Part shown: piece after piece, positions 1,209 through 52,624 of the stretch
How the letters are laid out: each line of letters opens with the position of its first letter
Numbering within the stretch: the first letter of the stretch is position 1
Assembly (NCBI GenBank): GCA_037127255.1
Contig: JBANSL010000018.1
Location: 24,525,175-24,589,174, forward strand
Length of the DNA stretch: 64,000 nt
Direction: 5' to 3'
Origin: Persicaria tinctoria
Lineage: Eukaryota > Streptophyta > Magnoliopsida > Caryophyllales > Polygonaceae
Translations under genes and position numbers: made by a program
Notes under the pieces: generated by a model
The model's database searches: none
What the model was told of the DNA's origin: nothing
The model's input: the letters and a program-made list of their open reading frames with translations, nothing else

Positions 1209-3040
1209 TTTTCTTTTTTGAAAACAAAACTATCAGATTAGCATATTAAGTCATTCAACAAAGTTTGCTCAAACTTCTAAAAAGCAGCCAATTTGAAAAT
1301 CAGTTACAAAACCCATCTGTGGCCTTCGCCCTGCCATTATATGTGCTGCTAAGTTGGCCTCTCTCTTCACCCACTGCCATTGACAATCTGCAAAGTCCCT
1401 TGCTGCACCTCGAATACCATGCAGAAGACAGCCTAACTCTCCCCTGACTTCGAATTTTTGTTGGAGCTTGGCATACAGCGATAAACAGTCCCCTTCAAAG
1501 ACTACATGCGAGATTCCAGCCTCTGCAGTCTTCCGCATTGCCCATAGGAGAGCCTCAGCTTCCACCGTCTCGACGTCCTCACTTGCCCTAGCCCTCCTCG
1601 ACCCTAGCAGACACACCTCTCCCTCTTCATCCCTCGCCACAAACCCCACTCCGCACCCCAACTGGGCATGAACCGCAACATCGTAGTTGACCTTAATTCT
1701 CCCTTGCTCAGGCTTCTTCCACTTCTTATAGCTATCACCTCCCTCCTTGCCACGTTCCTCCTTGTGAGGATCTCTCTCCTTTTCAAAATCAGCCCAATTT
1801 ATCCTCGCCTTATCAACCACACTCTGCACCTCCAGCATCTCTCCTTCGAAAATCCTATGGTTCCTCGCTTTCCAAATCTCCCACATGAGCACACATCCAG
1901 CCTCCACTTCTTCCTTCTTCCCTCTGTCCAATAGACTCTCAATGCAATCCATAACCTTGTCCTTCCCTCCCAGTTTTATGCTCACAAATTTTTGTTGCCT
2001 CCAAACTCTCTTCGCTGCCCAGCAGTTGAACAGCACATGTGCTCCCGTTTCCTTCTTGCTGCACAACTCACAGTTGGCGTCAGGTGTGATCTTTCTTTTG
2101 AACAATCCCTCCTTGCAAGGAAGGATCTCTCTGCATGCTCTCCATATAAAGGCCTTTACCCTTGGCAGTGTATTTATCTTCCATACCTTCTTCCAGAAAT
2201 TCTCCCCTGTAAAACTGCTTACGCTCGGCCTCATCTGATCAACCTCCCGTCTTGCCATAAAAACATGATATGCCGATCGAACATTGAACACCCCATTACG
2301 ATTGTAATGCCAGATCCTTTCATCTTTCATTGTCGAGTCTACCAGTCGTGTTCTAAGAACCATGTCCGCATCGCCCGGCAGCATAATACTCCTAATCATC
2401 TCCTCATTCCAGTCATTTCTCTCCCAGTCTATTAGATCCGACACTCTCAACTCTTCGTCGGAGTTTGCTATATTTAAGATGGGCCTGAAGCTAGGCGGGT
2501 TTGGCAGCCACTTGTCCTTCCATACCATGATTTCTGAACCGTTACCAACCGCCCATCTTGTGCCCTCCTCAAGCACTTCCCTCCCTTTGACAAGGCTTCG
2601 CCAGGCATAACTTGGGTTGTAGCCCGCAGCCGCATCCATAAAGGTCCCATGAGGAAAATACCTAGCTTTGAGCATTCGAAACAGGAGTGTGTCAGGCTCC
2701 GATACTAACCTCCATCCCTGCTTTGCAAGCATAGCTAGGTTGAATGCACTCATGTCCCTAAAACCCATCCCCCCTCTACACTTAGGCCGGCTCATCCTCT
2801 TCCAGCTCATCCAATGCACCCGTCTTCTGTCCTCTCCTTCTCCCCACCAGAACTTGCTCATCATACTCTCGAGCTCTCCACACACTCCTTCCGGTATCAA
2901 GAAACAAGACATAACATAGGTTGGAATGGCTTGAGCAACCGACTTAATTAAAATCTCCTTTCCCGTTTGAGATAGGGCTTTTTCCTTCCACCCTTTTAAT
3001 TTCTTGTGCACTCTCTCCCTAATCTGATAGGCCGTCCTAA
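1209..3040 (-). mobile_element. 5'-truncated LINE (non-LTR retrotransposon), 3' half
   Basis: A minus-strand ORF at 1269-3011 carries the C-terminal half of a plant LINE ORF2. After its stop the minus strand ends in a short A-rich tail (AAAAAAGAAAA, complement of 1209-1219), lying against the poly-A of copy A. The far end (about 3030) is also A-rich, so any target duplication is hidden in A runs. The upstream endonuclease and RT core are absent, as is usual for 5'-truncated LINE copies. Confidence 0.75.
1269..3011 (-). pseudogene. LINE ORF2 C-terminal part: RT thumb region, zf-RVT and RNase H
   Basis: 580 codons are open without a stop. In order: end of the RT region (SVAQAIPTYVMSCFLIP, KFWWG), the 'W..aRY' linker (LKARYFP, WRSLVKGREVLEEGTRW), a zf-RVT zinc-binding domain (LPRVKAFIWR near residue 285; CELCSKK..., HVLFNC near 315-330), and a C-terminal RNase H-like domain (NYDVAVHA, EAEALLWAMR, FEGDC, ANLAAHIMA). 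The RNase H acidic residues D, E and D are present. The first ATG is probably internal to a longer ancestral ORF2, because endonuclease and RT palm (YADD-type box) are missing. Intactness of the remaining frame suggests a fairly recent insertion. Confidence 0.85.
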
Positions 3041-3184
3041 TAAAAAAAAATTATTTTAAATGAGTCATAATTAGAAAAAATAAAATAAGTACTTAAGTCA
3101 AGTTGAATTATTACTTTTCACTTTTACCTTGAATAGGCCATCCTAATTAATTATATCCGAGTCCCATGTCATGGTTAACAATAA

Positions 3185-3903: not shown

Positions 3904-4137
3904 TAACAATAAAAATACGGAGTACACCCCTTCACGTCGTTTGGTCAACAGTAAAAAACAAGCAATGATAATTTAGGTTAATTTTTTTTTTGGTAGAAAA
4001 TTTTGGGTTCATTTTAGATGTAGTTTTACTTATTTGAATATGGTTTATAAAACACGTTTGGGAGCCCACAAATAAAACATTACGGAGTATTTTATGTTTA
4101 ATACTCCGCTAATTTTTACTATTTACACCGCAAATCC

Positions 4138-4460
4138 ACCGCATCCCTATGCGGTGAGTTAATCAAATTTTAGCAGGACATACCGCATGCACATGCGGTA
4201 TGTCCGTTGACCGTATAAAAACACCGCATGTATATGCGGTGGGTTAGGCTAAAACGGAGTCCGTAATACGAGAAACCGCTTGGGTCGAAGTTATCCGAAA
4301 CCACCGCATGGGTATGCGGTGGTTTTATAAAATATTTAAAATTTAGGTAAGATTTTATCGCATCTCCATGCGGTGTTTTTTTACCGTTGCCACAACGGTA
4401 ACAAAATACCGCATGGAGATGCGGTATGTTTTTTACCGTTGGGGGCCCATTATAAATAGG
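4138..4460 (+). promoter_or_regulatory. Promoter of PMD gene: six 18-bp palindromes plus TATA box
   Basis: Six copies of the palindrome start at 4138, 4182, 4223, 4303, 4357 and 4408; examples are ACCGCATGCACATGCGGT and ACCGCATGGAGATGCGGT. The last ends 25 bp before TATAAATAGG (4451-4460). The start codon is 4584. Each copy is two ACCGCAT half-sites facing each other across about 4 variable bases, the form expected of a dimer binding site. This is the largest cluster in the element. Confidence 0.75.
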
Positions 4461-4583
4461 CGTGGGAGGCCCAGTTCTCCGACACACCGAATCTTCTCCG
4501 ATTCCTTTCTTTCCGAGCCCGACTTTTGGTTCCGTCGATTCCCCGTCCCCATATCTACCACCAATTTGTACCCGAGTTTTGAG

Positions 4584-7500
4584 ATGGTGAAAGACAACCG
4601 TGGAAAAGTCGCGGCTACTGATGATGTCGGTCCTTTTCGGAGACATCCGTTACAGGTAACATTTAATGTTTATAAAAATCAATGTGCTTTATTTTTTAAC
4701 CTGAAGGAAATAGTGTTAACATTTAATTGTTATATATAATGTAGCCGGAACCCAATATACAGAGGAGGAGGACGACAGATATACCGCCACAGCTTGAGAC
4801 ACAGACTGAGCAACAACCACAGACTCAGACACAGCCTCAGCCTAAGGTATGTTAAAATCGTTACTAGGTGAAGGGAAATTGAAATCGAATAAGTATATAT
4901 TTATGTTTTCTTAGGAGTTGATATTATTAGGTTCAAATCATTAATAAACCTTTGGAAAATCTTGCAACATTTAGTCAGTGACACGATATAGTATCGTATA
5001 CGAGCCATAGGATTCTGTCAAATACTAGGTGTAAGGAAATTGAAATCGAATAAGTATATATTTATGTTTTCTTAAGATGATATCATTAATAAACCTTACG
5101 AAAATCTTGCCACATTTAGACAGTCATACGATATAGTATTGTAATTGAGCGATAGGATTCTGACAAATATATTATAATTTACACAGTCTGCGTTATCGAG
5201 AAATTTAGGAGAGAGGGTGGTTTTGCAATCTGCTAGGAGAGCTGCCCTTAGGGAGAGACAGACGTTGGTGGATGTATCAGTTCCTATGGAGACGGATAGT
5301 GACGCGGTAGATGATGATACCGAGGCTGCCGTTAGGGAGACCCAGACGTTGGAGGATGTAGTAGATCCTCCGGAGAGGGATACTGAGACGGTAGGAGCTG
5401 ATACTGGGCCATTTTCTCAGTCACGTGTTGACCAGAGTGACGGTTTGGGGCACACGTCCCAGTCATCTATAGAGACATATCAGAGTCTGGTGCAGATTGA
5501 GCTGACCTTGATGTCTGACCACACGGATGATCCAGTGGTGCAGTCGAACGGAGAGTCTAGTCAAGGCAACCAGGGTATTGAGATGGTGGAGGAGTACCTA
5601 CGAGGGGACCGAGCACGGCAGACGGATGAGCAGTTGCAGACTGGAGCTGAGAGAGTGGATGAGCAGTTGCAAACTCATCATGACAGTTATCAGGAGTACT
5701 TTGGGACTGCGTTTGCGAGCGAACAATTGAACTCGTATGACGACACGGCACCTCTGCTCGGAGATGTGGGTGTTGGGACGAGTCATGCTCGAGGTGGCGA
5801 CCAGGAGCCATGGGTCGTTGGGCAGATAGATTTTTCGTCGTTCACCCCGGTAGGATCTACGGGTGTAGGGAGGACGCCTGGGAGTCAGCATGCGGCGCCA
5901 TCGTCGACGCCGAGGACCACCGAGCCTGAGCCGATCATCAGGAGTCAGCAGGCGGTGTCATCAGCGACACCTAGGAACTTGGAGGGTGTGCCGATTGCCG
6001 AGGGGCATGAGAGGCATGTACGTGGACAGAGGAGTTCTTCGGCCCCACCTATTGAGTCAGCTGCACTTTCGAGGCATGTGTCGCTGGACCCCCTCGACCA
6101 GAGACATGATCCGATGTGGGGGGCATCTGACGATGTTCATCAGGATATGGGAGGAGACCAGGCGGCACAGCCCCTTGTCCGTGTAGTGCAGAGGAGGCGG
6201 AGACAGCGTGGCGAGAGCAGTAGGGCAGGTGGTGCTGGGCAGCATGGTGAGGGGAGTAGTGCAGGAGGTGATAGGCAGCATGGCGAGTGTATCAGGACAG
6301 GGGTCATTCGGGCTGTTCTGCCCGAATGGACAGGGGGGCACATACCGTTTCCCTTCTGAGAGACTACGAGACCCACATTGCACAGGCTGTTTGGAGACGG
6401 GAGGACGCAGCCTTGCGTAGGGGTGTGCGTGTGCAAAGACGGGGGCAGTCGCTGGGCCGGGTAGAGGCGTTTTTGGAGGTTGATGGACGGGAGTCCTGGT
6501 TTCCCGCAGTGCGTGAGACTGGGTTCTGGGACCTGAGAGATTTCGAGTGGGATCATGTGGATCACACTCTGATCGGTGCGTTTGTTGAGCACTGGCACCC
6601 CGAGACGAACAGTTTTCACTTCACATGGGGAGAGATCACCATCACACTGCACGATGTGTTCTTCATACTTGGCCTTGGTATGGACGGAGAGGAGTGTATT
6701 CACTTGGATGACGTGGGCGCCTCGAGGGACACAGTTGTGGAGTATTACGGCTTGACTCAGAACGAGCGGACGAGCGCATGGGCCCATGGAGACCCTACTG
6801 TTCAGCTCCTCCTTGAGAAGATAGCACCGATGCGACAACGGGTTCGAGATGGCGCCCCACTAGAGCATGATATGGAGTGCATCTTGGGTGTTGTGATGGG
6901 GATGATTGCGACTGGGACCTTGTTCATCGACAAGTCGGGCGGAAGATTGCGTCCGGAGGTGATTCGTAGGTTTATGGATGCAGCGCAGGTGTCGCATCTT
7001 TCTATAGCTGCAGGGGTGTTGGCGTGCTTGTACCGGGGATTGGGCGAGGCGACCCGGGAGTTGGCCAAAGACATGGACGGTTGTACAAAACTATTGGAGG
7101 TAAGTCATTCGTTCTGTGATTATTTATTTTAGAAGTTTTGTAACTAGGTTATAATGATTATGTTGCTGATAGTATTGTTCCTTTGTAGGTGTGGATATGG
7201 TTGCATTTTCCGGTGTTCAAGCCCGGCATGACGCTCGATCGGAGGCTAGCCCGGGATCCGCGACGCGGGGTGAGGTACGTCCTGGGGGCGGCGCCATTTT
7301 CCACTACGGTGACCCGGGATGATAGGCCTCGCATCGAGCGACTGGATGTTCTGCGGCGGAGGCTTGATGAGATGACTGTCGACGAGGTACGAACACAATT
7401 TATATCCGCACTTACATTTGTCATACTATAAACTAGATTTTAGTCGTAATAACAATTTCTATTACATTGCAGATCGAGTTCATGCCATTTGGTAGACACT

Positions 7501-8030
7501 TGGATTTTGATGGAGATCTGCGTCTTTCGAGATATAGGGGCACCATTCGGTGGTTGTTCGAGGAGGAGTCGTATATGCCGAACCGTGTGCTGCGACAGTT
7601 TGGTCGGGTTCAGCACATTCCCGCTGATCCAATCAGACCTACCGTAGTGCTCAGACCGAAGTCCGCCAAGTGCAAGAAGGAGGCGTCGTTCCACCCAGCC
7701 GACAACCAATGGGCGCACAGGTTCGATCATCTTTTCCCCATGGAGGAGTTGCCACGGACCTCTGAAGAGTACCCATATGGCGTGGCCGATGACTATCTAG
7801 AGTGGTTTCACCGCCATAGTCATCCATACCTACTTCCTGACACTCCTCGACACCAACCCATCATCCCGCCGCCGCCATCCCCGCCGTCGCCACCCCCGCC
7901 GACCATTATTGAGCAGCGCCATCATGCGGCTGGGTTGGAGATTCAGCGACTCAGGGATCTTAGAGTTGAGTTGACAGCTGCACACCTAGCTCGCATCTAT
8001 GAGCAATTTTGGGGTCCTCCCCCACCGTGA
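4584..8030 (+). CDS. Plant mobile domain (PMD) protein of MULE, five exons, one frameshift
   Basis: Exons by splice sites and frame: 4584-4655, 4745-4846, 5187-7099, 7189-7386, 7473-8030, all GT-AG. Residues from the first three exons form a long low-complexity, Gln/Ser/Asp-rich region. The PMD begins near 6480 and shows its hallmarks (RETGFWDLRDFEWDHVDHTL, FVEHWHPETNSFHFTWGE, TLHDVFFILGL). Exon 4 is W.W.HFP; exon 5 has PNRVLRQFGRVQHIP, then a proline-rich tail. The frame shifts by one base near a run of six G (6333-6338): upstream frame reads LPEWTGGHIPF then stops at 6357; downstream frame opens at VSLLRDYETHIAQ. One lost base would explain it, or an assembly error. PMDs occur in MAIN/MAIL nuclear proteins and in transposons; the role here is unknown. 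Confidence 0.8.
4860..5168 (+). repeat. Tandem duplication of ~160 bp inside PMD intron 2
   Basis: Two diverged direct copies lie back to back. Both begin ACTAGGTG(A/T)A-GGAAATTG, share AATCGAATAAGTATATATTT, and end near GATAGGATTCTG. They explain most of the 340-bp intron 4847-5186. Confidence 0.85.
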
Positions 8031-8322
8031 CGGTGCGATCTGGGATGATGTATGTGGTTGTTCTGTTTGCGGGTAGATGGCTTTTTTGTGTAGTAGTTGG
8101 TAGTTTGGATTCTTTTTTGTGCAGTAGTTTGGATTGTTTTTTGTGCAGTAGTTGATGATTCGATTTTGGATTACGTATTTTGTGTGTTGGTGTGGATTTG
8201 ATGGTTTGTTACCGTTGCAGATCGTTTTCAAATTTGAATAGTATGTCCGTACACAACTTTCAATATCATGATTCGAAACGAACTTTATAAATTACAAGCA
8301 ACCAAATACAAACGACCCTAAG
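8031..8322. other. 3' regions of two convergent MULE genes
   Basis: Non-coding, T/G-rich on the plus strand, with short repeats of TTTTTTGTG(T/C)AGTAGTTTGGAT (about 8080-8150). It separates the PMD stop from the end of the coiled-coil gene on the other strand. Confidence 0.6.
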
Positions 8323-8595
8323 TCAAGTGTTACGCACAGTAGCTTCACCTAGCTTCATTACGAGAGCCTTTTTTTCCTCTTCCAGAACTGTAACTTGACT
8401 TTCCAGGATATCAATCCGCCAACGGGCTTGTTGGTTTTCGACCAGCAGCGACCGATTTTCATCACGTAGTCTCTTTATCATCGCCTCCACCGTCTTTGAC
8501 CGTGGACTACTAGTGTAGAGAACCGCCTCAAACTCTTCCATCGTGCCTTGACGTATTATGTCGTTGCTTGAGCTTTCCCCGCTGGTGTCCGACAT
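8323..8595 (-). CDS. Short coiled-coil protein encoded by the MULE
   Basis: 90 residues starting MSDTSGESSS. I chose the ATG at 8595 because the longer frame back to 8661 would run through the TATA box and palindrome. Residues ~40-88 form a heptad-rich helix (VEAMIKRLRDENRSLLVENQ, then IDILESQVTVLEEEKKALVM) typical of a parallel coiled coil. There is no basic region ahead of it, so it is not a bZIP. It is divergent from the BED-finger gene and shares its promoter interval. Function unknown; a dimerisation partner for an element protein is a guess. Confidence 0.55.
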   Translation of the reverse strand: MSDTSGESSSNDIIRQGTMEEFEAVLYTSSPRSKTVEAMIKRLRDENRSLLVENQQARWRIDILESQVTVLEEEKKALVMKLGEATVRNT

Positions 8596-8630
8596 GTTGA
8601 TGTGTGGTGCCTTGGTCAGAGACTCCGGGC

Positions 8631-8734
8631 CATATATAGGTTTTAGACACCGCTTGTCCATACGGTAGTAAATATCGTATGGACAAGCGGTGTTAACTAC
8701 CGCATGGACATGCGGTGGTTACTAGTCTATATAA
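8631..8734. promoter_or_regulatory. Divergent promoter: palindromes between two TATA boxes
   Basis: Minus-strand TATA (complement of CATATATAGG, 8631-8640) serves the coiled-coil gene; TATATAAGG (8728-8736) serves the BED gene. Between them sit three palindrome copies: variants at 8649-8666 and 8674-8691, and a canonical ACCGCATGGACATGCGGT at 8699-8716. The first two are exact complements, forming a perfect 17-bp stem (8648-8664 with 8676-8692) around an 11-base loop. Confidence 0.75.
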
Positions 8735-8793
8735 GGGGACCTAAACCGCCTCCGGAAACACACCACCGACGGAAACACATTTCACCGCCGACA

Positions 8794-8982
8794 ATGTCGT
8801 CCGAACCAAGACCAATTCCACGTGAAGACATGTTCACCAAACACTACAAAAGAGAGGCGCTTGGAGGCATCGCTTTTACTGCAACGTGCAGTCACTGCGG
8901 CCATCGCTACACCGTGACCAACAACCTGCAGCACGGTCATCTTAAGCGGCACATCAACAACAACCATGCCGACGAGATCTAG
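8794..8982 (+). CDS. Stand-alone BED-type zinc finger protein (62 aa)
   Basis: The ATG at 8794 (MSSEPRPIPRED) lies 60 bp past the TATA box; the longer frame from 8704 overlaps the palindrome and is rejected. The core is CSHCGHRYTVTNNLQHGHL followed by KRHINNNH: C-x2-C, then an N-x2-L-x2-H-type helix ending H-x4-H. That matches the BED finger of hAT transposases and plant ZBED proteins. No transposase domain follows; the protein is only the finger. It could bind DNA such as the element's own palindromes, but that is inference. Confidence 0.65.
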   Translation: MSSEPRPIPREDMFTKHYKREALGGIAFTATCSHCGHRYTVTNNLQHGHLKRHINNNHADEI

Positions 8983-9005
8983 GATTTATGTGTTTATCCG
9001 ACTTA

Positions 9006-9110
9006 TGTGTAGTCGTTCGTATGTGTCAGTGTGATGAAGTTGTTCTTATTGTTGGTTGTGTAGTCGTTCGTTTGTGGCAGTGTGATTAAGTTGTTGTTAT
9101 TGTTGGTTGT
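9006..9110 (+). repeat. ~52-bp tandem duplication in 3' region of the BED gene
   Basis: GTGTAGTCGTTCGT(A/T)TGTG-CAGTGTGAT then AAGTTGTTNTTATTGTTGGTT occurs twice in direct order, with a partial third start at about 9109. Confidence 0.85.
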
Positions 9111-9351
9111 GTAGTAGTTTGTTTGTCGTCTAGTTGTAACAATGTTGTTTGAATAATAAGTCGGTTCGTACGCTATTTGTGTCATGTGTTTCCTATTTCA
9201 ACATATTTTCTATTTTCCTTGCCACATTTGAAATAATATGTCATAGAAATCACCGATCGGGATTCGATACAGAATTTCATTAAACGGTTGAACTGCTTAG
9301 GAATGAAAATACAACAGATGCACATCACACTACATACTTGGTAATGCATGT

Positions 9352-9795
9352 CTAATCACTACCTTCGTCCGATGACCTCTCATTAATGGAAATGACAATA
9401 TTCATTTGGTTGAACGCGTAATACCTTTCATCTGCGTTGAATGCTCGCAGCTTTCGGATAACATGATCACATAGGCCCTCAGCCCCGAACATGTAAACAT
9501 CGTAACGACAATATCGCCTAATGTGATTCGCAATACGCGCCTCTGCATCTAAGTTATACGATTCGGGAAATCCTCTGTCGTCATAACAATGCGCACAAGA
9601 AAACTCGATCGGATATGCTATGTCAGTGTCTGGCTCGAATTCACACTGTAGGATTACACACGAATCTCCCGGAAGAAATGCTGGATGCCTGCAGTTGCAT
9701 TCCTCCGGCCATCGTGGCTCCGTGCAACGAATTAATGTAACATTGTACTCAAGATAACCTGTCGTTCACCGGTATGTGTCTAGAGTGTTTACCAT
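9352..9795 (-). pseudogene. Third CxCxH-family paralogue, one in-frame stop
   Basis: Reading from ATG at 9795 gives 147 codons ending TAG at 9352-9354, with a TGA as codon 10. Counting that codon, the motif C33-x-C35-x-H37 falls at exactly the residues it has in the paralogues at 10037 and 11295. Further matches are a later Cys (CVILQC), YPIEFSC, PESYNLDAEARIANHI and a C-terminal AFNQMNIVIS like AFNRIEIYIS. The TGA is most simply a nonsense mutation. The gene is divergent from the paralogue at 10037 and shares a palindrome promoter with it. No known domain recognised. Confidence 0.65.
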
Positions 9796-9850
9796 TTTGT
9801 GATTAGCTGGACAGCCGTGGTGGTTCATGTCGCACTTGGGTGGTCGTCAT

Positions 9851-9998
9851 GATTTATAGGCCTTACACCGTATGGTCTTGGGGTGTACTTCTACCGCATG
9901 GGCATGCGGTAGAAGTATTTTGGCACAGGGCGTAGGGTCACCGCATGGATATGCGGTATAGAGACAACCCATATGGTTGTCCCACATTGGCTATAAAA
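9851..9998. promoter_or_regulatory. Divergent promoter of two CxCxH paralogues
   Basis: Minus TATA is the complement of GATTTATAGG (9851-9860); plus TATA is CTATAAAATG (9991-10000). Palindromes ACCGCATGGGCATGCGGT (9893-9910) and ACCGCATGGATATGCGGT (9940-9957) lie between, with a degenerate half-copy near 9866. Confidence 0.75.
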
Positions 9999-10036
9999 TG
10001 CAAAAACCACCTCTTACGAATCACAACAATCAAATC

Positions 10037-10567
10037 ATGGTTAGAGTAGCTGAGTTTGAAGGTGAGACAGATATGGGTGTGTCATACAAAATTATACACG
10101 AAAAGTTCTCGAGGCCATACGAGGATTATTTGTGCAATTGTCAGCACAAGCGGTGGTGCCAATCATTTCCGTGCTGTCTTTTTCACGTTGTATGCTACAA
10201 AGGCGTTGAAGGCGATAGGTACGCATTCTCGGAGCCGGTTGAATTGGCGTGTCTGAAAGGTCACCAATTCCACATTGACGACCCTGAGTCATACTACCGC
10301 GAGGCGGTTGAGGCAATCAAATGCCCAATCAACGACCTATTCAGCGATGTCAGGCTACATTGCGCGCTTCAAATTGCAAGGTTCACTATCGACAACGCAG
10401 TCCGTCCAGCGAACGACAAAGTGAAGAAGTACGCATTCAACCGCATTGAGATCTATATTAGCCCGCGTCTTCTCGAGGAGTCAGTAGGTAGTTGTTCCGT
10501 AGATCCTCTACTGTGGTGGGACCCTTTGCAAGGTATACCATATTCATCAGTAGAGTGGAGTCAGTAG
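10037..10567 (+). CDS. CxCxH-family cysteine-rich protein of the MULE (unrecognised domain), altered C-terminus
   Basis: 176 residues from ATG 10037 (MVRVAEFEGE), about 45 bp past the TATA box; the frame upstream to 9977 has no ATG before the TATA. Cys33-x-Cys35-x-His37, Cys41, Cys46-Cys47 and Cys53 suggest a metal-binding module. It is followed by PVELACLKGH, a helical middle (YYREAVEAIKCPINDLFSDV) and VRPANDKVKKYAFNRIEIYI, ending EESVGSC. The same blocks appear in the gene at 10762-11295 on the other strand. An 80-bp tandem duplication at the 3' end changes the last residues. I do not recognise the family; a virulence or host-defence role is not indicated. Confidence 0.65.
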   Translation: MVRVAEFEGETDMGVSYKIIHEKFSRPYEDYLCNCQHKRWCQSFPCCLFHVVCYKGVEGDRYAFSEPVELACLKGHQFHIDDPESYYREAVEAIKCPINDLFSDVRLHCALQIARFTIDNAVRPANDKVKKYAFNRIEIYISPRLLEESVGSCSVDPLLWWDPLQGIPYSSVEWSQ

Positions 10568-10637
10568 GTAGTTGTTCTGTAGATCCTCTACTGTGGTGGG
10601 ACCCTTTGCAAGGTATACCATATCCATCGGTAGAGTA
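10478..10637 (+). repeat. 80-bp exact-period tandem duplication at the 3' end of a CDS
   Basis: GAGTCAGTAGGTAGTTGTTC starts at 10478 and again at 10558; the copies differ at only a few bases. Because 80 is not a multiple of 3, the duplication moves the frame and the stop: the first copy ends in ...VEWSQ, while the undisrupted end would have been ...PSVE. Confidence 0.95.
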
Positions 10638-10761
10638 GGAACCAAGTTTGTGTAAAATCATTATGTAGAATCCGTTTATTAGCCAATGTATCACCGCATG
10701 TGTAATACAAATCATTTATAAGCGAAATATAATTAATGATTTAACTCGGGACCAGATAAAT

Positions 10762-11295
10762 TCACCATAAATAATACACAACAATTACCAATCGACAACA
10801 TTTTACCTGTGGTACATAACAACTACCAACTGACTCCTCTACATTGTTCGACAAAATGTGAATCTGTATTCGGTGAAATGCGTACTTTGTAAGCTTGGTG
10901 TTTGCACGCCGCACGACTTTCCCCACTGTGTATCTTGCCACCCGCGCTGCACTGGCCAGTCCCAAATTGGAGAAGAAGTCGCTAACAAGCTCCGTAATTG
11001 CCTCCGTCACGTGAATATAATATGCTGCAGGGTTATCCCTATACGAGTACGGCCTTGTCATGCGGACATCCTCGTAAGTCACTCCTTGAACGCACTCTAG
11101 GTCAACCGAATCGGAAACTCTGGCTGTATTGCGTTCTTCGCATACAACTTGGCAAAGGCAGCACGACCATCCTATCGAGCTTCTGTGCTGACAGTTGCAC
11201 AATATATCGTCAGGTGGCGTACGAAAAGTTTTGACTGTAAGTCTAAACCTGCTGCTCGATCTTGTCTCCGCTTCATACACTTTGGTAGTGGCCAT
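10762..11295 (-). CDS. CxCxH-family cysteine-rich protein of the MULE, second paralogue
   Basis: 177 residues from ATG 11295 (MATTKVYEAE). It shares with the gene at 10037 the motif LCNCQH at residues 32-37, CC at 45-46, VVC near 50-52, DSVDLEC, a SYRDNPAAYYIHVTEAI block, ARYTVGKVVRRANTKL, KYAFHRIQIHI and EESVGSC. The two genes converge. A possible 5' splice site (CAG|GTAAAA) follows VPQ, so the last 14 residues could be intron read-through. Its promoter has TATA at 11331-11340 and three palindromes behind it. Function unknown. Confidence 0.65.
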   Translation of the reverse strand: MATTKVYEAETRSSSRFRLTVKTFRTPPDDILCNCQHRSSIGWSCCLCQVVCEERNTARVSDSVDLECVQGVTYEDVRMTRPYSYRDNPAAYYIHVTEAITELVSDFFSNLGLASAARVARYTVGKVVRRANTKLTKYAFHRIQIHILSNNVEESVGSCYVPQVKCCRLVIVVYYLW

Positions 11296-11330
11296 AGTTG
11301 TTATGGTTTACTGAAAGTCTCAACCAACCC

Positions 11331-11422
11331 CTTTTATAGTTTCCTTTTAACACCACCGTATGGCCATGCGGTGATATATACCGCATATCCATGCGGTATA
11401 TACCACCGCATGACCATCCGGT
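11331..11422 (-). promoter_or_regulatory. Promoter of second paralogue: three palindromes plus TATA box
   Basis: The minus TATA (ACTATAAAAG, 11340-11331) sits 14 bp from the first of three palindrome copies at 11355-11372, 11380-11397 and 11405-11422. Confidence 0.75.
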
Positions 11423-11679
11423 GATACAGCCATATCACGGTTACACCGTTACATGACAACAGCGTCCCAGCACGTGGATTAGGGACTCTAAACGAAGACA
11501 TGGAGCAACGTACCAGCACGGCGACACCATTTCATGGTATGAATTTTGGTTATTTCAGGGAATAACACGTTACATGAAAACGAATAGAGTGTCTCATTTT
11601 TCATATTAATTAATGATATAAGATTACAGCAAAAATAGCTCAGTTACAAAGTTTTGCCGCGTCTTCGTCATGTCACACA
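11423..11679. other. Non-coding spacer within the MULE
   Basis: It lies between the promoter of the second paralogue and the 3' end of the B3 gene. No ORF or palindrome seen. Confidence 0.5.
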
Positions 11680-12140
11680 TCAAAGGAAATCATTGTTGTT
11701 CTCTTCCTCTGATGGTGAAACATTCTCCGGCGGCACTACGACTACCCTAAACCGAGAGTTTCCTAAGTAGCTAAACATCAACCCCGCGCCTACGCGCACG
11801 CCACGGGATCTCGCGAAATTATTCCATCCTTGTGCGAGCCAGAGCGCCCCGGATCTGTTGCGCTCAACCCGGATGTTGGTGCCTCTTCTCCCTACCCCAT
11901 TAGTCAGCGTTATTCTTTCGACACCGGCCAGCCCGTATTCTTCTTCGAAGTTGGAAGGCAGAGGCTACAATTTTCAAGATGTACTTAGTGAGTTCGGACC
12001 ATTGTGAATTATATGTCAGACGACAGAATGGGGCTTACCAATATTTGTGTCAGCGAGACGTCTTCTACCCACCAGAAAAAATCCCTCGGGCCACTCCATG
12101 AGACTGAGAAGAAAGGTCTTGGTGTGTTACCAGCCGCCAT
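11680..12140 (-). CDS. B3-domain DNA-binding protein encoded by the MULE (two exons)
   Basis: Exon 1 is 12140-12039 (34 codons, MAAGNTPRPFFSVSW...), then a 74-bp GT-AG intron (12038-11965), then exon 2 11964-11680 (94 codons plus TGA). The 128-residue product is almost wholly one B3 fold: N-terminal 'P.F', then LPSNFEEEYGLAGVERITL, RGTNIRV, LWLAQGWNNFARSRGVRVGA, and LMFSYLGNSRFRVVVV. These are the usual 'lP..F', 'W....W..F', 'G..l.F.y.g.s.F.V' B3 positions; REM-type B3 proteins are the nearest general match. The acidic tail (PSEEEN) is outside the fold. It is an obvious candidate to bind the element's palindromes, though that is inference. Short exons explain why simple ORF scans would miss it. 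Confidence 0.75.
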
Positions 12141-12168
12141 GTTGTAATCACGACATCGCACGTCGGTA

Positions 12169-12387
12169 ATTTATAGCGGGAAATCATGTCGCGTTATATG
12201 CGGTATGCGATACCGCATGTGTATGCGGTGGTTCACCGCATATCTATACGGTATGCGTTGCCGCATAGATATGCGGTAGTAAAAAAAACCGGAAACGTAC
12301 CGGCACGGGGACATCGTGATCTTCTTCCGCCATCGGAGTTGGTCGTCCAAATTCCATCGAACGGAGGAGAGCGAGTCTCTTATAAAA
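12169..12387. promoter_or_regulatory. Divergent promoter between the B3 gene and a hairpin-bearing transcript
   Basis: Minus TATA is CGCTATAAAT (complement of 12169-12178) for B3; plus TATA is TATAAAAG (12381-12388). Palindromes lie at 12212-12229, 12235-12252 and 12260-12277, with a degenerate copy near 12189. A separate 14-bp inverted pair, CGGAAACGTACCGG (about 12290-12303) and its complement (about 12527-12541), brackets the plus-strand start region. Confidence 0.65.
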
Positions 12388-12409
12388 GTGCGAAGATGAG
12401 AAATTCCGT

Positions 12410-12920
12410 CGTGAGTTCCGACGAAAGTTCCCAGCTTCGTCCTCTTGTAAGAGGTTCATTCTCCCTCGACAGATGTAATTTAGACGCCCACTACGATGAC
12501 GGACGAAGATGACCATGTACCAGTACCGGTACGTTTCCGAAGCATTGGTTGGATGAGCAACAGTCATCCGTAGGATAATGTTAAAGACGTTATGGGCGTA
12601 CATAAGTACTATCACAACGTCTTTCACATTATCCTGCGGATACCTATTACATTTTTTTAGATCGAATCTACATAACACTATATCGAAGCAATATAACCCG
12701 AGCAACATGCCAGCGGCCTGCGATTTCAATCAAAAGACACAAATCGCCGGCCGTGGCATGTTGCCTAAGCTATCATCGCTATTGAGCGATGAAAAAAGCA
12801 TACAAACAGATTTTATTTAATTTATGAGACGAAGCGACATAACCCGTGCAAAATAGTCAAGGGTCAAATTTTTTTATCTGAAGACGCAAATCTTTGGCCA
12901 TGACTATTTCGCACAGATTA
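12410..12920 (+). ncRNA. Candidate hairpin transcript with three stem-loops
   Basis: Downstream of the TATA box at 12381 only very short frames follow: the first ATG likely past the transcription start, 12496, gives 25 codons. Three imperfect stem-loops follow: 12568-12591 with 12616-12639 (22 of 24 paired), 12701-12726 with 12741-12766, and 12846-12868 with 12893-12914. Hairpins 2 and 3 share flanks (ATAACCCG-GCAA before, AAGAC(A/G)CAAATC in the loop side, ATTATCATCGCT-like after) yet have different arms that still pair. The sizes resemble plant miRNA foldbacks. Expression is unproven; decayed MITEs are the alternative. Confidence 0.4.
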
Positions 12921-12982
12921 TCATCGCTTTTCCGCCACGACAAATGTCACAAACCGGCCATGAGGGGTATATATAGATACAT

Positions 12983-13157
12983 ACCGTATGCCCATGCGGT
13001 ATACGGTGGTGCACCGTATACCTATGTGGTGGTGCATCGTAGACCTATACGGTGTCCACAGTACCGTATATCTATGCGGTGGGCCCACAAATTCAAATAA
13101 TTCGACACCAACGGTCATCTGGAACCACCGCATACCTATGCGGTGTTACTTTATAAG
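12983..13157 (+). promoter_or_regulatory. Promoter of the transposase gene: five palindromes plus TATA box
   Basis: Copies at 12983, 13013, 13036, 13063 and 13127, the last (ACCGCATACCTATGCGGT) ending 7 bp before TTATAAG (13151-13157). Several copies have C-to-T or G-to-A changes at CG (ACCGTAT, ATGTGGT, ATCGTAG), as expected of methylated CG sites decaying. The start codon is 13224. Confidence 0.75.
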
Positions 13158-13223: not shown

Positions 13224-16200
13224 ATGGTTAACGACGACACCAATCGACGGCCTTCAAGCCCAGGGGAGGAAGCACCTACAACTACGCCAATGACCGATAA
13301 CTCACCACCCCCTCGTCTTCCGGTATGTGAATAATGTTTATCATTTGGAATGTCGTTGTAGGTAGAATATAGGTAGTGGAATAACCAAAATATAGGTAGT
13401 GGAATCATATCAAATGGAAACCACTATAGGCACCGGTTTTTAAATGTAGGGGAATAAATTAGGTTCTGAAATAGAGCAGACGGAAACCATGAATGGGTCA
13501 CGTAATATATATGTACTGTTTGCATGCTGGCAGCTACCACTGGAGGAGCAGGCTGATCCGATGCCGGAAGACGGTCAGGACGATCAGGCCCGTAACCAGG
13601 AGTATCACGATTACACTCCCGAATTTGCTACATCCCAGACGTGGACCAATCGTGACGATCTCCTACAACACTATCGTGGCACAGCATTAAAGCTTAATAT
13701 GGTTTTGACAATCAAGCGTTCTTGGGGGAGCACTCCTACAAGGCGTGGGAGTTTTTTGCTCGCATGTGAGAAGTACGGCCAGTACACTCCCCGTAAGAGA
13801 CCGCGAGTAGCCGGAGATGATGCAAGCGGGAACACGCGCAGAGCTATTTCGAAGATAGAGGGGTGTCCGTTTGCATTTTCTAGCGTGGAGTTCAAACGGG
13901 GCGAATGGGGCCTGGACGTTATTCATGGCAAGCACAACCATCTACTCCCTGGTGCATTGGACGGTCACCCGTACGTCGGACGAATGGATACAGATGAAAG
14001 AGACACTACGTTGGCCCTTACCGTCGCTGGTACCCCACCAAAACCGATTTTAGCTACATTGAAGATGACAGCTGACGCACGAAAGAAGTTGAACTTCACA
14101 TCACGGCGCCAAGTGTACAATGCGAGAGCAAAGTTTAAAGCTGAAGCGAGAGGAGATCGAACAGTCTCCCAGGAAGCACTCCGCATTTTGTGGGATAAGG
14201 GTTACTACTACTGTACGAGGAGATCCCCTGACGATCCCAACAGGCTTCAAGATCTATTCATCGCCCATACAGACGCTCGCCATCTTCTAGCCATGTTTCC
14301 ATACGTCGTCCTCGTCGATAGTACATACCGGACGAATGCGTACGTTTCTATATACAGTTATTCTTTTACCCCTTCCCACCAGGGTATGCGAACTCAAATA
14401 TTTCATTGTGCAGGTACGGGATCCCTTTGTGTGAGTTCGTTGGATTTACTTGCACAAAGAAGAACTTCGTCATCGGGTTCTGCTTCATGTCGCACGAGAA
14501 CACAGATACGTATATTTGGGCGTTGGGGCAGCTCGTTTACCTCATGCGAGATAATCTTCCTAACGTTGTTGTCACTGATCGAGAGTTGGGGTTGATTGCG
14601 GCGCTACGAGAAGTTCTTCCCAATGTCAGGCATATGTTGTGCACAGTGCACGTCCTCCGACGATGCGAAGAAGCTGCTTTCCAGAAGTCAAAGAATCTTG
14701 ATGTTGCTAGGCGTTTCAAGAACGCATGTGTTGGCCTGTTCCAATCCAGATCGGTTGAAACTTTCGCCTCTAGAAGGAGGGGTATGCATGCAGAGTGGAG
14801 GCATATCGAAGGGCTTATGCCGTATTTGGAGGCGACGTGGTTACGAGATTACTCAGAGCAGATAGTTCGTGCATTGACAGACGCAATCCAGCATTTTGGT
14901 ACGACCACGACGAATAGGTGCACCTACGTTTTCATTATAAAATTCATTATACACGTAATTTGTTTACATATAACGATCTTCACCTGCGAGTCTCACTTAT
15001 CTTTTAGGGTTGAGGTTGCTCATTCTGTGTTGAAAAAGACCTTAAACTCTGTAGTCGGTGATTTCACTCATGTGATAAACACAATCGATCTAATGATGGC
15101 GGATCAAATATGGGAGGTGAAGAATACATTGGGGAGAGCGAACAACACCTGGCCTACAGACTCCCACGGCCTATGGATTTTCGATCGAATTCGGAATATT
15201 GTGTCGAAGGAATGTTTCAACCTGTTGTTCGAAATCTACACAAAGATGGAAGTCGAGCCACCTTCGCAACCATGCAGAGATGCATACTGGAGGGACGTCT
15301 AAGGTCTTCCATGCACACATGACATGCAAGCTTGTCGAGACACGCAGATACCCATCAGACCATCCCAGATACACATTTTTTTAGAAGCAATTAGATTTCA
15401 AGAGGCCTCATGTTGACAACGTCCAGGATAACACTCCCCTCAGCAGAGCTGATGTGGACATGTCGCGCATGATCAGTTTGTTCCAGAGCGGAGCTATGGA
15501 TGAGGATACTCGTTGGAGAATCGCGTTGGCTTTCAACGACGGGGATCGTCCCTCCCATACACCGTTGACCACCCCTGACCCGGAGGACCGTAGACCGCCC
15601 GGGAGACCGAGGACTCGCCACCCCTGTCAGACGAACCCTCTACCTTGGGAACGTGAGCGTGCTCGGGCTCAACGTCGGGCAGATAGACCGGCGACCATTG
15701 GATCCGCACGAGGGCGAGGCCGAGGTCGGGGTCAACCGGCATCAAACGAAACAGATGACGTGGAAGGTACTAAGGAGGCCACTGGGTCCAACGACATTGC
15801 CATCGACGACCCTCCTAGGGGCCGAGGAGTAGGCAGAGGGCGAGGACGGGGTCGTGGAAGAGGACGTGGACGAGGTCGATCAGTGTCGGAGCCAGCTCCG
15901 GAGATTGTAGGTGACATTCTAACACCAGCACCTACGGCGCTTCCACCACAGAATCTACCTTGAGTAGAATTCAATTGGGGCACTGGCAACATCGACGAAT
16001 TCATGATTACTTTCATACGAGCCGTCACAAATGTTGCAGGTGATGGTCACTGTGGGTATAGGTCTTTTGCTTGTCTTCTGAACTTGGGACAAGACGCATG
16101 GCCTCGAGTTCGACGAGAGCTGACCGTTGAGCTACAGGTGCATTCAGATCGGTACCATTACTATTCGGCCTTACATGAGCTCATCATGAGGGTCAACTAT

Positions 16201-16651
16201 TTCGGCACGTGTCATGATGCTACGTATTGGATGGAGATTCCGATCATGGGCGAGGTGTTTGCCACGCTTCACCAGCGTCCTTTGGTGATTTTGTCACAGA
16301 TGATGCCTATGTTGTGCCTACCTCTGTACGCCACCGGTGGCCCGTCAGTACCGGCCTATGAGGAGCTAGATGGAATAGCTTTAGTCGGCAACAACAACCA
16401 TTTCGTTCCGGTACGTTTCATATTTCATATTCATTAATTTGTTAATATTTTGTTTATCTTTTCTGATGTCAATATTCACCTTGTATTCACAGATTTGGTT
16501 GTTGCCTGGTTCACCTCTTCCTCCAGTCTACGTCAAATGGACACGGCATCACGATCGCACGGTCGACGGTTGGGAAGAGCAGTTTGCAGCGAGGATTGCA
16601 CGATATAGAGCTTACCGTCGTCGTGATGGTGGTCGTCCCCTATCGTATTAG
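13224..16651 (+). pseudogene. FAR1/MULE transposase fused in frame to an OTU protease-like domain, disrupted
   Basis: Exons: 13224-13322, 13534-14339, 14414-14917, 15008-16410, 16493-16651 (GT-AG). The N-terminus has a WRKY/GCM1-like finger (ACEKYG, EGCPFAF, GKHNHLL). The MULE core follows: VLVDSTYRTN and VTDRELGLIAAL give two catalytic Asp, then CTVHVLRRCEE. A remnant SWIM motif (GLPCTHDM) and IPIRPSQIH follow, then an RG-rich linker, then OTU (DGHCGYRSFACL near 16030; NNNHFVPV near 16400). Lesions: TAA at 15300-15302 just before GLPC; a frameshift at the T7 run 15376-15382 with a TAG at 15382; TGA at 15961-15963 before the OTU part. A weak intron 15297-15384 would skip the first two lesions but remove the SWIM motif. 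Transposase-OTU fusions are, to my knowledge, known in plant MULEs. Confidence 0.8.
15964..16651 (+). CDS. OTU cysteine-protease-like segment of the transposase fusion
   Basis: This is the C-terminal part after the TGA at 15961; an internal ATG at 16003 (MITFIRAVTN) could start it alone. Exons 15964-16410 and 16493-16651. The catalytic motif D-G-H-C (GDGHCGYRSFA) and the C-terminal catalytic-His region (GNNNHFVPV) are present, with the intervening YWMEIPIMGEVFATL and PLVILSQ blocks of OTU-like proteins. OTU domains remove ubiquitin from proteins; in a transposon this could protect element proteins, which is speculation. The tail (YVKWTRHHDRTVDGWEEQFA) is basic. Confidence 0.6.
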
Positions 16652-16914: not shown

Positions 16915-18446
16915 TTTAGGTCGACAAGCATATAAGGATCGCGAAAAGTGGAATAAGAAGTCCCTGAAAAACAGTCAAAATCGACGAAGGCCAAGTCGAC
17001 GGCGACAAGGAGGAGCATCCTAGACACTACTCGATCTCGAGTAGGCCAACTCGACATCGACAAGCCCAGACACTCCTCGACTTCAGAAAACCACTGGACG
17101 CAAAGCGAAGCTCCTCGAGATCGAGTACACTCTACTCGAGATCGACAAGGACAATTACTCGACCTAGACTGAGTTGCCTCCTCGATGTGTTGTCTTGTGA
17201 GTTCCTTCCTTTACTCTTGTTTTTATTTGATTTTATACAGTGGGGACACTGTAAATTTTAAGTATGAGGTGGGGGAAGGGCTTACTTTGTGCATATTTGC
17301 CATATTTGACATTATGTCTTGAATTGCTTATACATGGCTATTTTGGAATGCATTATTGATTTATGTGCTTATATGCATGATTTCCAAAAGTTTGAAAAAT
17401 GACCCCCATTGAAAATTTTGGTTAATGTCATGGAAGCTTATATTGAACTCGACGATGCAAAATTGGATTCATTAGAGATATAGCATGAAATTGCCTAGTA
17501 AAGGGGAGTCATAATGAAGTGCATATTTTTATGAAAACCATGAAAGGAGGTAAAATTTGAAGTTGCTTTTGACATGTTGCATGATAAAATGATGGAGGAC
17601 TTTATATTTCCATATAATGCTCATTGTTATATTCCAAGCCTTACCTATGCTTATGCATCACGAAAGCCATAATATGTCTTATTTCAAATATTGCTCCACA
17701 TGATCTAAATATTTGCCATTCTTTACCTTATCCGGGGATTATGTTGAGAATGATGTTACATTATGGAGATGTTATATGGTGTTTGTGTTGTGATTATTAT
17801 CATTATTGGAGTTTGGAAGGAAATTGTTTGAAATATATGGAAAATTTAATGAGTGAAAGAAAATCCAATCACCTCAGGAGATAAAGGTAGATTGGCCCTG
17901 CTCTCTAAGATAATAGTTTGGAGAGATGGGACACATTGTGAGGAGTCCAAAGCACTAAGTATCCGGGGCCATTCATAACACCCATGTTTGTGACTCGCGA
18001 GAAGGAAGTGCTGAGGTCAGAGAGGTAAAAGCATTATTGTTGATAAAAGCATTATGAAAGGTGATGAAATTTATGAAAAGGAATGTGGAAATTTAAGTTT
18101 GGAAATACTCCATTTCCCCGAATCATTAGCACCACACTGCCAGAAATTGCCCACCTTTTAGCCTTTTACCAAATCTACTCCTTATTTGAGCTTAGGTTGA
18201 AGTCCTTTTGATTATCAAAGCTTTGTCACTTATGAATGTTTTTGCATAACCCTCCTTTTGTGAGTAGATGTTGCTTTGATATAATTGCACATGCATGGAT
18301 TTGTGACACTAGTACCTTTTCGAGGATGGTAATTAACTGCTGGGTTATATAAGAATGAATCTGATATGTTGAGAGTTTTGATTTCTTCCCCTGAATGACA
18401 GATAAAAGTATTGCTTGAGGACAAGCAAGCTTAAGTATGGGGTGTT
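16915..18446 (+). mobile_element. LTR retrotransposon internal 3' non-coding part, 5'-truncated
   Basis: No retroviral-type domains are visible. The segment ends with TTGAGGACAAGCAAGC and the purine-rich tract AAGTATGGGGTG directly before the LTR, a pattern seen ahead of 3' LTRs of plant Gypsy elements. It shares TCGANNTCGA motifs with the LTR (four copies at 17030-17150). Left boundary is a guess from the first such TCGA-rich sequence. Confidence 0.45.
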
Positions 18447-20454
18447 TGTTGTGAGCTAAATCTGCCATATTTTACAGTAACTTTAATATCGTTTTCTGCA
18501 TACTTTGCATACATTTGGGTTAGATAGTACAGAATCTATGTAGTTTATGTTTATTTGCCAAATTATGGAATCTACACCAGTTTCTGTTTAAATTCGCAGA
18601 ATTCGAGACGTTTTACAGCAATTCTAAGAAAGGTCAGAAAAGCTCGGAAAACAACTACAGAAGTCCAGAATTCGAGAGTACAAAACCAGGACAAACCGAG
18701 CTAAAGCCAGAGCTGCTCTATGTCGAGTACACCTTACTCGATCTCGAGTAGAGAGCCCGAGCAGACTTAGTCGACAAGGCCTGATCGAGGAAACCAAGTC
18801 CGAGGCAACCTGACTCCGGGAGACAACTCGATCTCGACAAAGACCTAGTCGAGATCGACTACACCTCAGCGCCACACCCGGAGTCGACGAGAAGAGGAGC
18901 TGATCGACAAGCCGAGGACAAAGACGCCGAGCACATCTCTACTCGATCTCGACAAGACCTAGTCGAGATCGACGAGCCACCTAGCGCCTGTCCGAGCCCA
19001 TGCCGAGGAGGAGTCCTCGACATCACCAGAGAGCCATCCTCGACCACAACCCTAGTCGATGTCGACGAGCCCTAGTCGAGATCGACGACGTCCAGGAGCC
19101 CAGATTCGAGCCATGTCGAGCAAAGTCACCCGAGAAGTCCAGTCGACGACGAATCCTAGTCGACATCGACGAGCCCTTGTCGAAGTCGAGTAGACCAGCT
19201 TCTGGAAACGCGTCGCCATGAGCAGTCCGAGTAGAGTTGGGATTCCTTGGGCACGAAGGAAGTCGAGAAGGCCGAGAATCTATCCAAAATCATCAAGACA
19301 CATCATGGAAGAGGAGATCTATCCACTTTAAGACATTTAGATATATTTAGATTTAATTTCCTTATTGCTTTTATTTATCCTTAAGCATTTTAGATATAGT
19401 TTTAGATATAGATATAGATATTCTATCCTTGAGTAGCAAGGATTAGAAGGCTATAAATAAAGCCCATGGGGCTCAGTTTTATTAATTCAATTTCAGTTAG
19501 AGAAGTGGTTCCACATAGACGGTTTAGGGAGTTCGAAGGTTTTAGGGTTTTGGCGTTCAACGAGAGTTGATTGCCGGGATTGTAAAGGCTTTGAATTTAG
19601 CTTAATGCAAGTTATTTCCTTTCAATCAATGTCTGAGTTTGCGATGAGGCGTGAGTAGTCCACCCACTTCTAGGGTTGGGGCGAGCCCAACGATAGCCAT
19701 GCGTGCTTGAGGTAAAGATCCGACCTTTATCATGTTTTGAGCATTTTGCTACTTGTTTATGTGTTTATTACCCGTCTAATGGAGATCCATGTTAACAACT
19801 TGGATTGTAAACATAAAGGCGGTGGAGACAATTAGGGTTTCTTGAAAGAGTTGTCTAATTGTTGGAAAAGACGAAAGCTTGTCCTTGATGCTATTCACAT
19901 GATTATCTGTTTGGTTCTGCCTTATGCATGCTTGGTTATCGTTGTTGCAAACCCCAATCTTGGAAGCCTTTTAAATTAAGTTTAGTTCGAAATCCCAAAA
20001 GCCTTTGCATTTATTTTCTTTCGTTTTAATCTCTGTCTTACTCGAGATCGAATAGCACTCGTCGATCTCGACTACTGATCTTCGACCCAAAGTCGTTGTA
20101 GCTTACTTGTGCAGGTACTCGACGAGAAGAAGCGAAGTCGTCTAAGACTCTACTCAACATCGAGTAGGCCTTGTCGATATCGACGAGCCCCTGTAACTGC
20201 TGCTGTGCTGTGTTCGACTGTGCCTGACCCCTGTCGACTAACCCTTAGTCGAGGTCGAGTACCACTGTTGTTGACTTCTGATCGTGAGATTTCTTCGCTG
20301 CCTAGGATCCGCTGACACGCTTCCTCGTGGATCGATCCTGACTTCCCACTGCTGCATCAAGAGGAGGTCTTGTAATTATTTGCAAGGGACGGAATCTGGT
20401 TTGCTGTGATTTATTTATATTTAATTTTGCATACTCGATTTCCTCCTAACAACA
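18447..20454 (+). repeat. Long terminal repeat (~2.0 kb), Gypsy-like, TCGA-rich
   Basis: It begins TGTTGTGAGC after a polypurine tract and ends CTAACAACA, giving TGTTGT/ACAACA inverted ends. TATA-like TATAAATAAAGCC (about 19452) suggests a promoter. Inside are about 13 copies of the spaced palindrome TCGA-N2-TCGA (at ~18740, 18829-18860, 18943-18975, 19053-19090, 19160-19190, 20040-20070, 20170, 20250). No matching second LTR is in the window. GGGCGCCG about 18 bp downstream could be a PBS remnant, which would instead make this a 5' LTR. Lineage not assigned. Confidence 0.5.
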
Positions 20455-52153: not shown

Positions 52154-52158
52154 CCAAC

Positions 52159-52516: not shown

Positions 52517-52624
52517 TCTCTGTGTGTGATGTGTGCTTGGGCTGAGGACGGACCTGGCCATGAAGAATCCACTTATCAGTAGAGTCTGAGTCTGCCCAGT
52601 GCAAGACTTAGAAAAGTAGAGGGG

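Follow-up and report, generated by a model that had tools for sequence, protein, structure and literature searches.

A palindromic dyad marks the promoters and both ends of a Mutator-like element family in Persicaria tinctoria

Introduction

How transposons escape silencing in a sequence-specific manner has been worked out in few cases, namely VANC, TnpA and MURA. These come from plant DNA transposons that encode their own DNA-binding proteins, among them Mutator-like elements (MULEs). In this study, we analysed a stretch of 64,000 nt of Persicaria tinctoria DNA (the window), which carries a damaged copy of a MULE with terminal inverted repeats (TIRs), together with further copies of this element from the host genome. 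A single palindromic motif marks the promoters of the element and, as the fuller copies reveal, both of its ends.

A close parallel is the anti-silencing system of VANC and VANDAL elements (PMC5735166; PMC10398659; Fu et al. 2013, cited there). VANC21 binds YAGTATTAY and the targets of VANC6 carry AGTTGTCC/AC, in both cases in tandem repeats within non-coding regions that include introns, such as those of VANB21 and VANC21 (PMC5735166), and the cited passages describe VANDAL elements as being without TIRs or as having short degenerate ones (PMC6446971). Compared with these accounts, the present element is likewise a MULE whose non-coding DNA carries short motifs of family-specific sequence, with recent turnover of tandem repeats and with open reading frames (ORFs) additional to the transposase. 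It differs in that its motif is an 18-20-bp dyad and not YAGTATTAY or AGTTGTCC/AC, in that this motif is confined to promoters and ends, with none in introns, and in possessing TIRs of about 60 bp and 9-bp target duplications. None of 15 element ORFs, scanned against Pfam as separate frames and not as spliced genes, matched DUF1985 (VANC) at E ≤ 1. An earlier note on this DNA had drawn a likeness to VANC; given the lack of a DUF1985 match, the presence of TIRs and the avoidance of introns and tail-to-tail gaps, the likeness is a functional one only. The element may work like VANC or TnpA, but it is not a VANDAL.

In En/Spm, a self-encoded protein binds the end repeats, takes part in transposition, affects expression and is linked to demethylation (PMC10398659, PMC2613891); TNPA recognizes subterminal repeats that act in excision, and it also carries the Suppressor function (PMC2613891). 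The present family likewise repeats a single motif many times at each end and keeps it in non-autonomous copies. En/Spm, however, belongs to another superfamily (CACTA), and its motifs are described as subterminal, whereas those studied here are palindromic and also stand at every internal promoter. No CACTA-type or TNPA-type family was matched by the ORFs scanned against Pfam (no direct comparison with a TNPA model was made), and the transposase is of the MULE type. Among MULEs, the ends of Muta1 and Muta5 of Aedes bear nine short repeats, variable in number in non-autonomous copies; those of Muta1 are subterminal and 12 bp long (PMC5225508). The repeats of Muta1 and Muta5 are, however, tandem units of 12 or 15 bp within the TIR, and the cited passages mention none at internal promoters. 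MURA of the maize element MuDR (mudrA/mudrB) lowers methylation at the TIRs of non-autonomous copies, according to the cited passages. MuDR resembles the present element as a TIR-type MULE with an extra gene, but it has two genes against about nine units here. To our knowledge, no palindromic array is common to each of its promoters. In the literature covered, which was partial and gives no proof of absence, we found no description of one dyad at each internal promoter and both ends of an element.

Results and discussion

A dyad specific to the element family

The refined palindrome reads ACCGYAT-N4-ATRCGGT, with four variable central bases and C or T at position 5 in the copies read. The preceding base is a pyrimidine in 120 of 124 sites and the following base a purine in 119 of 124, extending the motif to YACCGYAT-NNNN-ATRCGGTR. 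Unless they are called exact, sites were scanned with the refined dyad at up to two mismatches. The window holds 23 of them in six clusters (Table 1), in agreement with the earlier note, which had reported about 22 in the same clusters but started the third at 9893 instead of 9867. The 18-mer given in that note has 21 matches at up to three mismatches, all within 4138-13144, compared with a mean of 0.11 and a maximum of 1 in dinucleotide shuffles. Exact dyads number 8,469 in the 1.68-Gb host assembly, as against two for a reversed-pattern control. The motif is thus abundant genome-wide, and the shuffles and the reversed-pattern control rule out chance or a simple repeat as its source.

The geometry is strict: in 312 kb of fetched sequence (L017, L030, L037 and L042, which overlap longer pieces, being left out), exact half-sites are separated by four bases in 366 cases and by any other spacer of 0-14 in at most six. 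L-numbers here denote copies or pieces of the element from the host genome, L016 being that of the window. The spacing between neighbouring palindromes peaks at 22-27 bp, and arrays hold 1-6 sites, the number varying between copies. Of 50 exact dyads placed in the first 4 Mb of contig 1, out of the 8,469, 49 fall by our own reading within eight elements of the family, and the other lies in a copied fragment. Neither a random position relative to genes in other copies nor abundance outside the family, which the earlier note had named as grounds for abandoning its idea, was found in the copies or among the placed sites.

Position at promoters

All eight predicted ATGs in the window have a palindrome 53-159 bp upstream (53-80 bp for seven of them). 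When the six clusters were dropped at random within the element, none of 200,000 trials served seven or eight ATGs; the PMD and transposase ATGs were one base off in this test, with the same outcome. TATA boxes and their nearest palindromes are about 7-36 bp apart, within the range of about 7-100 bp claimed previously, and the clusters at 8649, 9867 and 12983 each stand between divergent TATA boxes, as had also been claimed. The introns of the window hold no palindromes and tail-to-tail gaps are likewise avoided; outside the six clusters the window has one further site, with two mismatches, at 20501.

The same arrangement recurs among 30 copies found by similarity to the B3 protein, including that of the window, in which coding matches occupy 34.2 of 98.5 kb: 340 of 341 palindromes lie outside them. 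L043 and L044, which have only two and no palindromes around B3 and look recombined, were kept in this set. In the fuller copies L046-L048, 64 sites are in promoters and 13 at right ends, whereas about 16 kb of coding and about 5.9 kb of other non-coding DNA contain no site at all, which rules out a general non-coding motif. In this count a promoter is the 300 bp upstream of a start (approximate for the transposase), and the end of L048 is only partly covered, a separate listing giving five sites there; L049, with its rearranged left part, and three other fuller copies were excluded.

The distance from the Cx3 ATG to its proximal palindrome is 59-60 bp in 21 of the 22 copies measured, all 22 of which have a TATA box. 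For B3, measured in 27 copies, the gap is 65-79 bp in 16, 86-93 bp in six and 101-105 bp in five, with a TATA box in 25. Since array size varies (two to four sites at B3 and one to six at Cx3) while position at the promoter is kept, the arrays grow and shrink beside it by units of about 25 bp. Overall, the notion of a shared operator at every promoter is supported, since the position, the geometry and the outer arms of the putative operator are all conserved in dozens of copies.

Position at element ends

That palindromes mark promoters, as first proposed, is correct but incomplete, because a further cluster of five or six sites, with no gene start adjoining, occupies the right end of all seven fuller copies. 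Terminal inverted repeats of about 60 bp are present in full and short copies, and the 20-mer of the family TIR, from which the left end of the window copy differs, has 1,692 exact matches genome-wide (859 forward and 833 reverse) and none for the control. Twenty terminal repeats were picked without regard to the motif from 100 among the matches listed; each adjoins at least three palindromes no farther than about 500 bp away, and in 18 cases the first of these stands at +33 or +34. Both the right-end clusters and the palindromes beside all 20 sampled repeats are new observations. Short copies of about 0.4-0.55 kb consist of two ends with seven or eight palindromes. A possible sister subfamily is represented by one deletion derivative, L010, whose right end has only three sites with two mismatches each.

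Three full-length copies measure about 9.7-14.3 kb between terminal repeats. An exact target duplication of 9 bp (9-10 bp by script) flanks eight of ten elements examined, three of them full length; that of L067 has one mismatch and that of L052 was not resolved. With a DDE transposase domain, TIRs and a target duplication within 8-11 bp, the element is a TIR-type MULE.

The crowding of palindromes at both ends makes a further function in transposition or end recognition probable, like that of the subterminal repeats of En/Spm. The sites might even be primarily binding sites of the transposase or an accessory protein at the ends, the promoter copies having spread from there with at most an autoregulatory role. 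Besides the right-end clusters, the adjoining palindromes and the short copies, the direct repeats of a related half-site, ACCGCTAAT, within the TIR itself favour this, and subterminal repeats are known from other MULEs (PMC5225508). Transposition alone, however, would not need internal promoter arrays, and these recur at the same units across copies, near TATA boxes, while being absent from other non-coding stretches. We consider such an origin unlikely, although it is the strongest of the alternatives to the mechanism proposed below.

Protein dyad or nucleic-acid hairpin

In an alignment of the transposase promoter from 24 of the 30 copies, differences between copies affect the outer ACCG/CGGT at 1-7%, the inner YAT/ATR at 3-33% and the centre at 8-53%. 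At two of the five sites the inner arm is much less variable than the centre (16 versus 53% and 3 versus 40%), and three of the four linkers between palindromes differ by 26-50%. Symmetry is seen at the inner positions 8 and 11 (p 6e-10). A dimeric DNA-binding protein accounts for the conserved outer arms, the variable centre and the strict spacing better than an RNA hairpin does, and on balance the pattern resembles a protein dyad of two half-sites in which the outer ACCG/CGGT matters most.

A direct role of the palindromes as RNA or single-strand DNA hairpins is very improbable, even though complementarity tends to continue into the flanks (permutation p 5e-5 for the window sites; 0.30-0.56 per position observed in 398 distinct sites against 0.26-0.46 permuted) and the seven arm pairs, on the plus strand, show a mild excess of G.T over A.C mismatches (98 versus 71) in related sequences. 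The most variable arm pair, positions 5 and 14, varies independently without compensation (Fisher p 0.29), with 39 G.T and 35 A.C mismatches, and most sites lie upstream of TATA boxes and hence outside sense transcripts. A strand-biased RNA hairpin, hinted at by the 23 window sites, was disfavoured when 218 distinct 18-mers were considered, the mild G.T excess remaining. The slight extra self-complementarity of the flanks may reflect how the palindromes arise. Some copies are palindromic for up to ten more bases per side, with differing flanks (for example L007:5191, L015:321 and L005:8900). In the transposase promoter, the last palindrome (window 13127) has ACCT as its centre in some copies and the reverse complement AGGT in others, as if the core had been flipped in place.

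Proposed mechanism and candidate binders

We propose, with a confidence just short of even, that a dimeric or paired DNA-binding protein encoded by the element acts through the palindromes on promoters and ends and probably switches the element on. The data themselves establish where the sites lie, how they are conserved, their geometry and turnover and, for those sampled, their restriction to the family; protein binding, self-encoding and a positive sign are inferred. The protein would bind the tandem arrays just upstream of the TATA boxes of the PMD, coiled-coil, zinc-finger, three CxCxH, B3, hairpin RNA and transposase units, as well as the arrays on both element ends. Promoters would thereby be activated or un-silenced, switching the element on as a unit, and the ends would be marked for mobilization, including those of short non-autonomous copies that keep little else. 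We favour a positive role in view of the growth of arrays away from the TATA box and of the activating or anti-silencing action described for the self-encoded proteins of VANDAL, Spm and MuDR (PMC10398659).

Several candidates may be ranked as the binder. The B3 protein is our tentative first choice: it belongs to a family of DNA-binding domains, its gene adjoins an array of its own and its ratio of nonsynonymous to synonymous polymorphism (pN/pS) is 0.23 (25 of 30 copies). The transposase, which must meet a TIR carrying the related half-site ACCGCTAAT, is a close second. The CxCxH or zinc-finger proteins seem unlikely, and a host factor takes what remains of the ranking.

Several observations weigh against the proposed activator. 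The pN/pS of B3 is biased low because the copies were found by protein similarity, and all comparison DNA consists of copies within one species. Conservation is not confined to the dyads, as the fourth linker, nearest the transposase gene, differs by only 5.9%, like the downstream sequence, and at three of the five sites the inner arm is more variable than the centre (17 versus 15%, 33 versus 20% and 11 versus 8%). The B3 gap varies (65-79 bp in 16 of 27 copies and 86-105 bp in 11), and the right-end sites serve no visible gene. Finally, at six of nine units only about 7-16 bp separate the TATA box from the nearest palindrome. This proximity would fit a self-encoded repressor as well, one that keeps transcription and copy number of the element down by blocking access to the TATA box, much as the Suppressor function of TNPA is described as a steric block (PMC2613891). 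Arrays of up to six sites that expand away from the TATA box would nevertheless exceed the needs of simple occlusion, and we rank repression, also unlikely, after an origin at the ends.

Alternatively, the element could mimic a host promoter element and ride a host programme through a host transcription factor. The transposase promoter does keep host-like GGGCCCA and CAACGG motifs, presumably those named site II and MSA. Against this, the dyad is nearly confined to the family (49 of 50 placed sites), its geometry is strict and it turns over within the family, which makes host control quite improbable.

That this eukaryotic DNA transposon forms a true regulon, with one self-encoded dimeric regulator acting on one dyad operator at all units, each with a promoter of its own, including the microRNA (miRNA)-like hairpins, and at both ends, is possible, though somewhat on the doubtful side. 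In that case, sequence-specific self-activation would have arisen a second time among plant MULEs, independently of the VANC family, and operator and end-recognition site would be merged in one dyad. Because a defined dyad is available here together with an extensive natural collection of differing arrays (8,469 exact sites, and B3 matches numbering at least 150) and few candidate binders, the question of escape from silencing becomes directly testable. The dyad could also serve as an orthogonal promoter switch in plants.

Element architecture

The features of the window copy are listed in Table 1. This copy lacks its right end and is further damaged by a break in the PMD reading frame and a premature stop in Cx1. 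In combining numerous compact, divergent promoters with hairpin RNAs and a single putative operator, the layout is closer to that of a virus than to a textbook two-gene MULE. Elsewhere, no protein homologues were found for B3, two for Cx3 and one for a transposase piece, on contigs of 713-3803 bases; viral contigs yielded none.

Table 1. Features of the element copy in the window (positions from the first base of the window)
Feature	Position	Strand	Evidence or remark
Left TIR with diverged tip, ending in the first palindrome	4090..4155	+	Comparison with left ends of L005, L012, L014 and short copies
Left-end and PMD-promoter cluster, 6 palindromes (4138, 4182, 4223, 4303, 4357, 4408)	4138..4425	.	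TATA 4451
PMD gene, multi-exon (model by eye), frame interrupted near 6345	4584..8030	+	PF10536 E 1.9e-28; below cut-off 9.1e-08
Coiled-coil-like 90-aa ORF (coiled coil by eye)	8326..8595	-	Only sub-threshold Pfam matches
Cluster, 3 palindromes with 25-bp spacing	8649..8716	.	Motif scan; between TATA 8638(-) and 8728(+)
C2H2/BED-like zinc-finger ORF, 62 aa	8794..8979	+	Sequence; weak zinc-finger matches only
Cx1, CxCxH protein, in-frame stop near start	9355..9795	-	Open there in 4 copies checked
Cluster, 3 palindromes	9867..9957	.	Motif scan; between TATA 9858(-) and 9992(+)
Cx2, CxCxH protein	10037..10567	+	40% identical to Cx3
Cx3, CxCxH protein, 177 aa	10762..11295	-	90 and 86% relatives P0001, P0002 (162 aa)
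Cluster upstream of Cx3, 3 palindromes	11355..11422	.	Motif scan; TATA 11338(-)
B3-domain gene, two modelled exons (12140-12039, 11964-11683)	11680..12140	-	PF02362 E 3.6e-08, joined exons
Cluster upstream of B3, 3 palindromes	12212..12277	.	Motif scan; TATA 12175(-)
Hairpin RNA unit, three miRNA-like hairpins and one long	12290..12945	-	Folding, strand comparison
Cluster, 5 palindromes	12983..13144	.	Motif scan; between TATA 12975(-, hairpins) and TATAAG 13152(+, transposase)
MULE transposase gene: FAR1-like N-terminus, DDE domain, R/G-rich tail, introns modelled by eye	13224..15963	+	PF10551 E 1.5e-16
Region downstream of transposase, taken to be OTU-protease-like	15964..16651	+	Matched in fuller copies

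PMD is described as a common passenger of plant MUDR elements (PMC6446971). The coiled-coil ORF is 92-98% identical in L005, L046, L047 and L048, with pieces in L014/L015 and no match in L012/L013 or L049. In the left part of L049, a Cx1-like piece stands where the coiled-coil gene would be expected, which suggests that units may be exchanged between promoters. The three CxCxH proteins are related and match no Pfam family. Cx3 stops at codon 163 in 13 of 15 copies and reads to 177 in the window copy and L030; its pN/pS is 0.50 (15 of 30 copies). Its predicted model (predicted local distance difference test score, pLDDT, 61.7) resembled no solved structure at E ≤ 0.001 and was uninformative as to fold.

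Both B3 exons match in 29 of the 30 copies, that of the window included, and the host genome holds at least 150 B3 matches. The domain scores above the Pfam cut-off (33.7 versus 30.1 bits), and the nearest solved chain is At1g16640 (E 0.0074). We take the protein to be REM-like. In addition to the DDE domain, the transposase matches PF00872 (E 2e-05) and, weakly and below the cut-off, PF03101 (E 0.01). The region downstream of it has no Pfam match; the OTU label is our presumption from the appearance of its motifs. At window 13081-13126 and in the copies, the transposase promoter keeps GGGCCCACA and CACCAACGGTCAT almost unchanged. We take these to be site II-like and MSA-like, hinting at cell-cycle-linked expression.

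Hairpin RNA unit

The region between B3 and the transposase folds far more stably than its shuffles (z -14.9 on the plus strand, 12280-12960; z -13.3 on the minus strand, 12545-12960). A plus-strand unit was rejected by the strand comparison, in which the minus strand is clearly favoured (-179.3 versus -147.8 kcal/mol, 12545-12960). With the unit in this orientation, the most likely promoter is at the minus-strand TATA box at 12975, kept in 22 of 24 copies when variants seen in the alignment are allowed. The cluster serving the hairpins would therefore be 12983-13144 and not 12212-12277, and this non-coding RNA unit appears to share its operator with the transposase. The miRNA-like hairpins lie at 12820-12945, 12680-12800 and 12555-12655 and are found in 26, 26 and 22 of the 30 copies, respectively; the long one, of about 250 nt, spans 12290-12539. 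They are possible transposon-encoded small RNAs; against Rfam, the region gave only matches below the gathering score.

Neighbouring sequences

Outside the element, an ORF resembling retroelement reverse transcriptase and RNase H (RVT_3, zf-RVT), with 593 codons open, lies at 1269-3050 on the minus strand. After the cut-off element, TCGA-rich direct repeats of about 48 nt occur within another repeat at 16968-20260. Long inverted repeats of 196, 198 and 124 nt, 78-80% complementary and about 14-17 kb apart, are found at 45902-63003.

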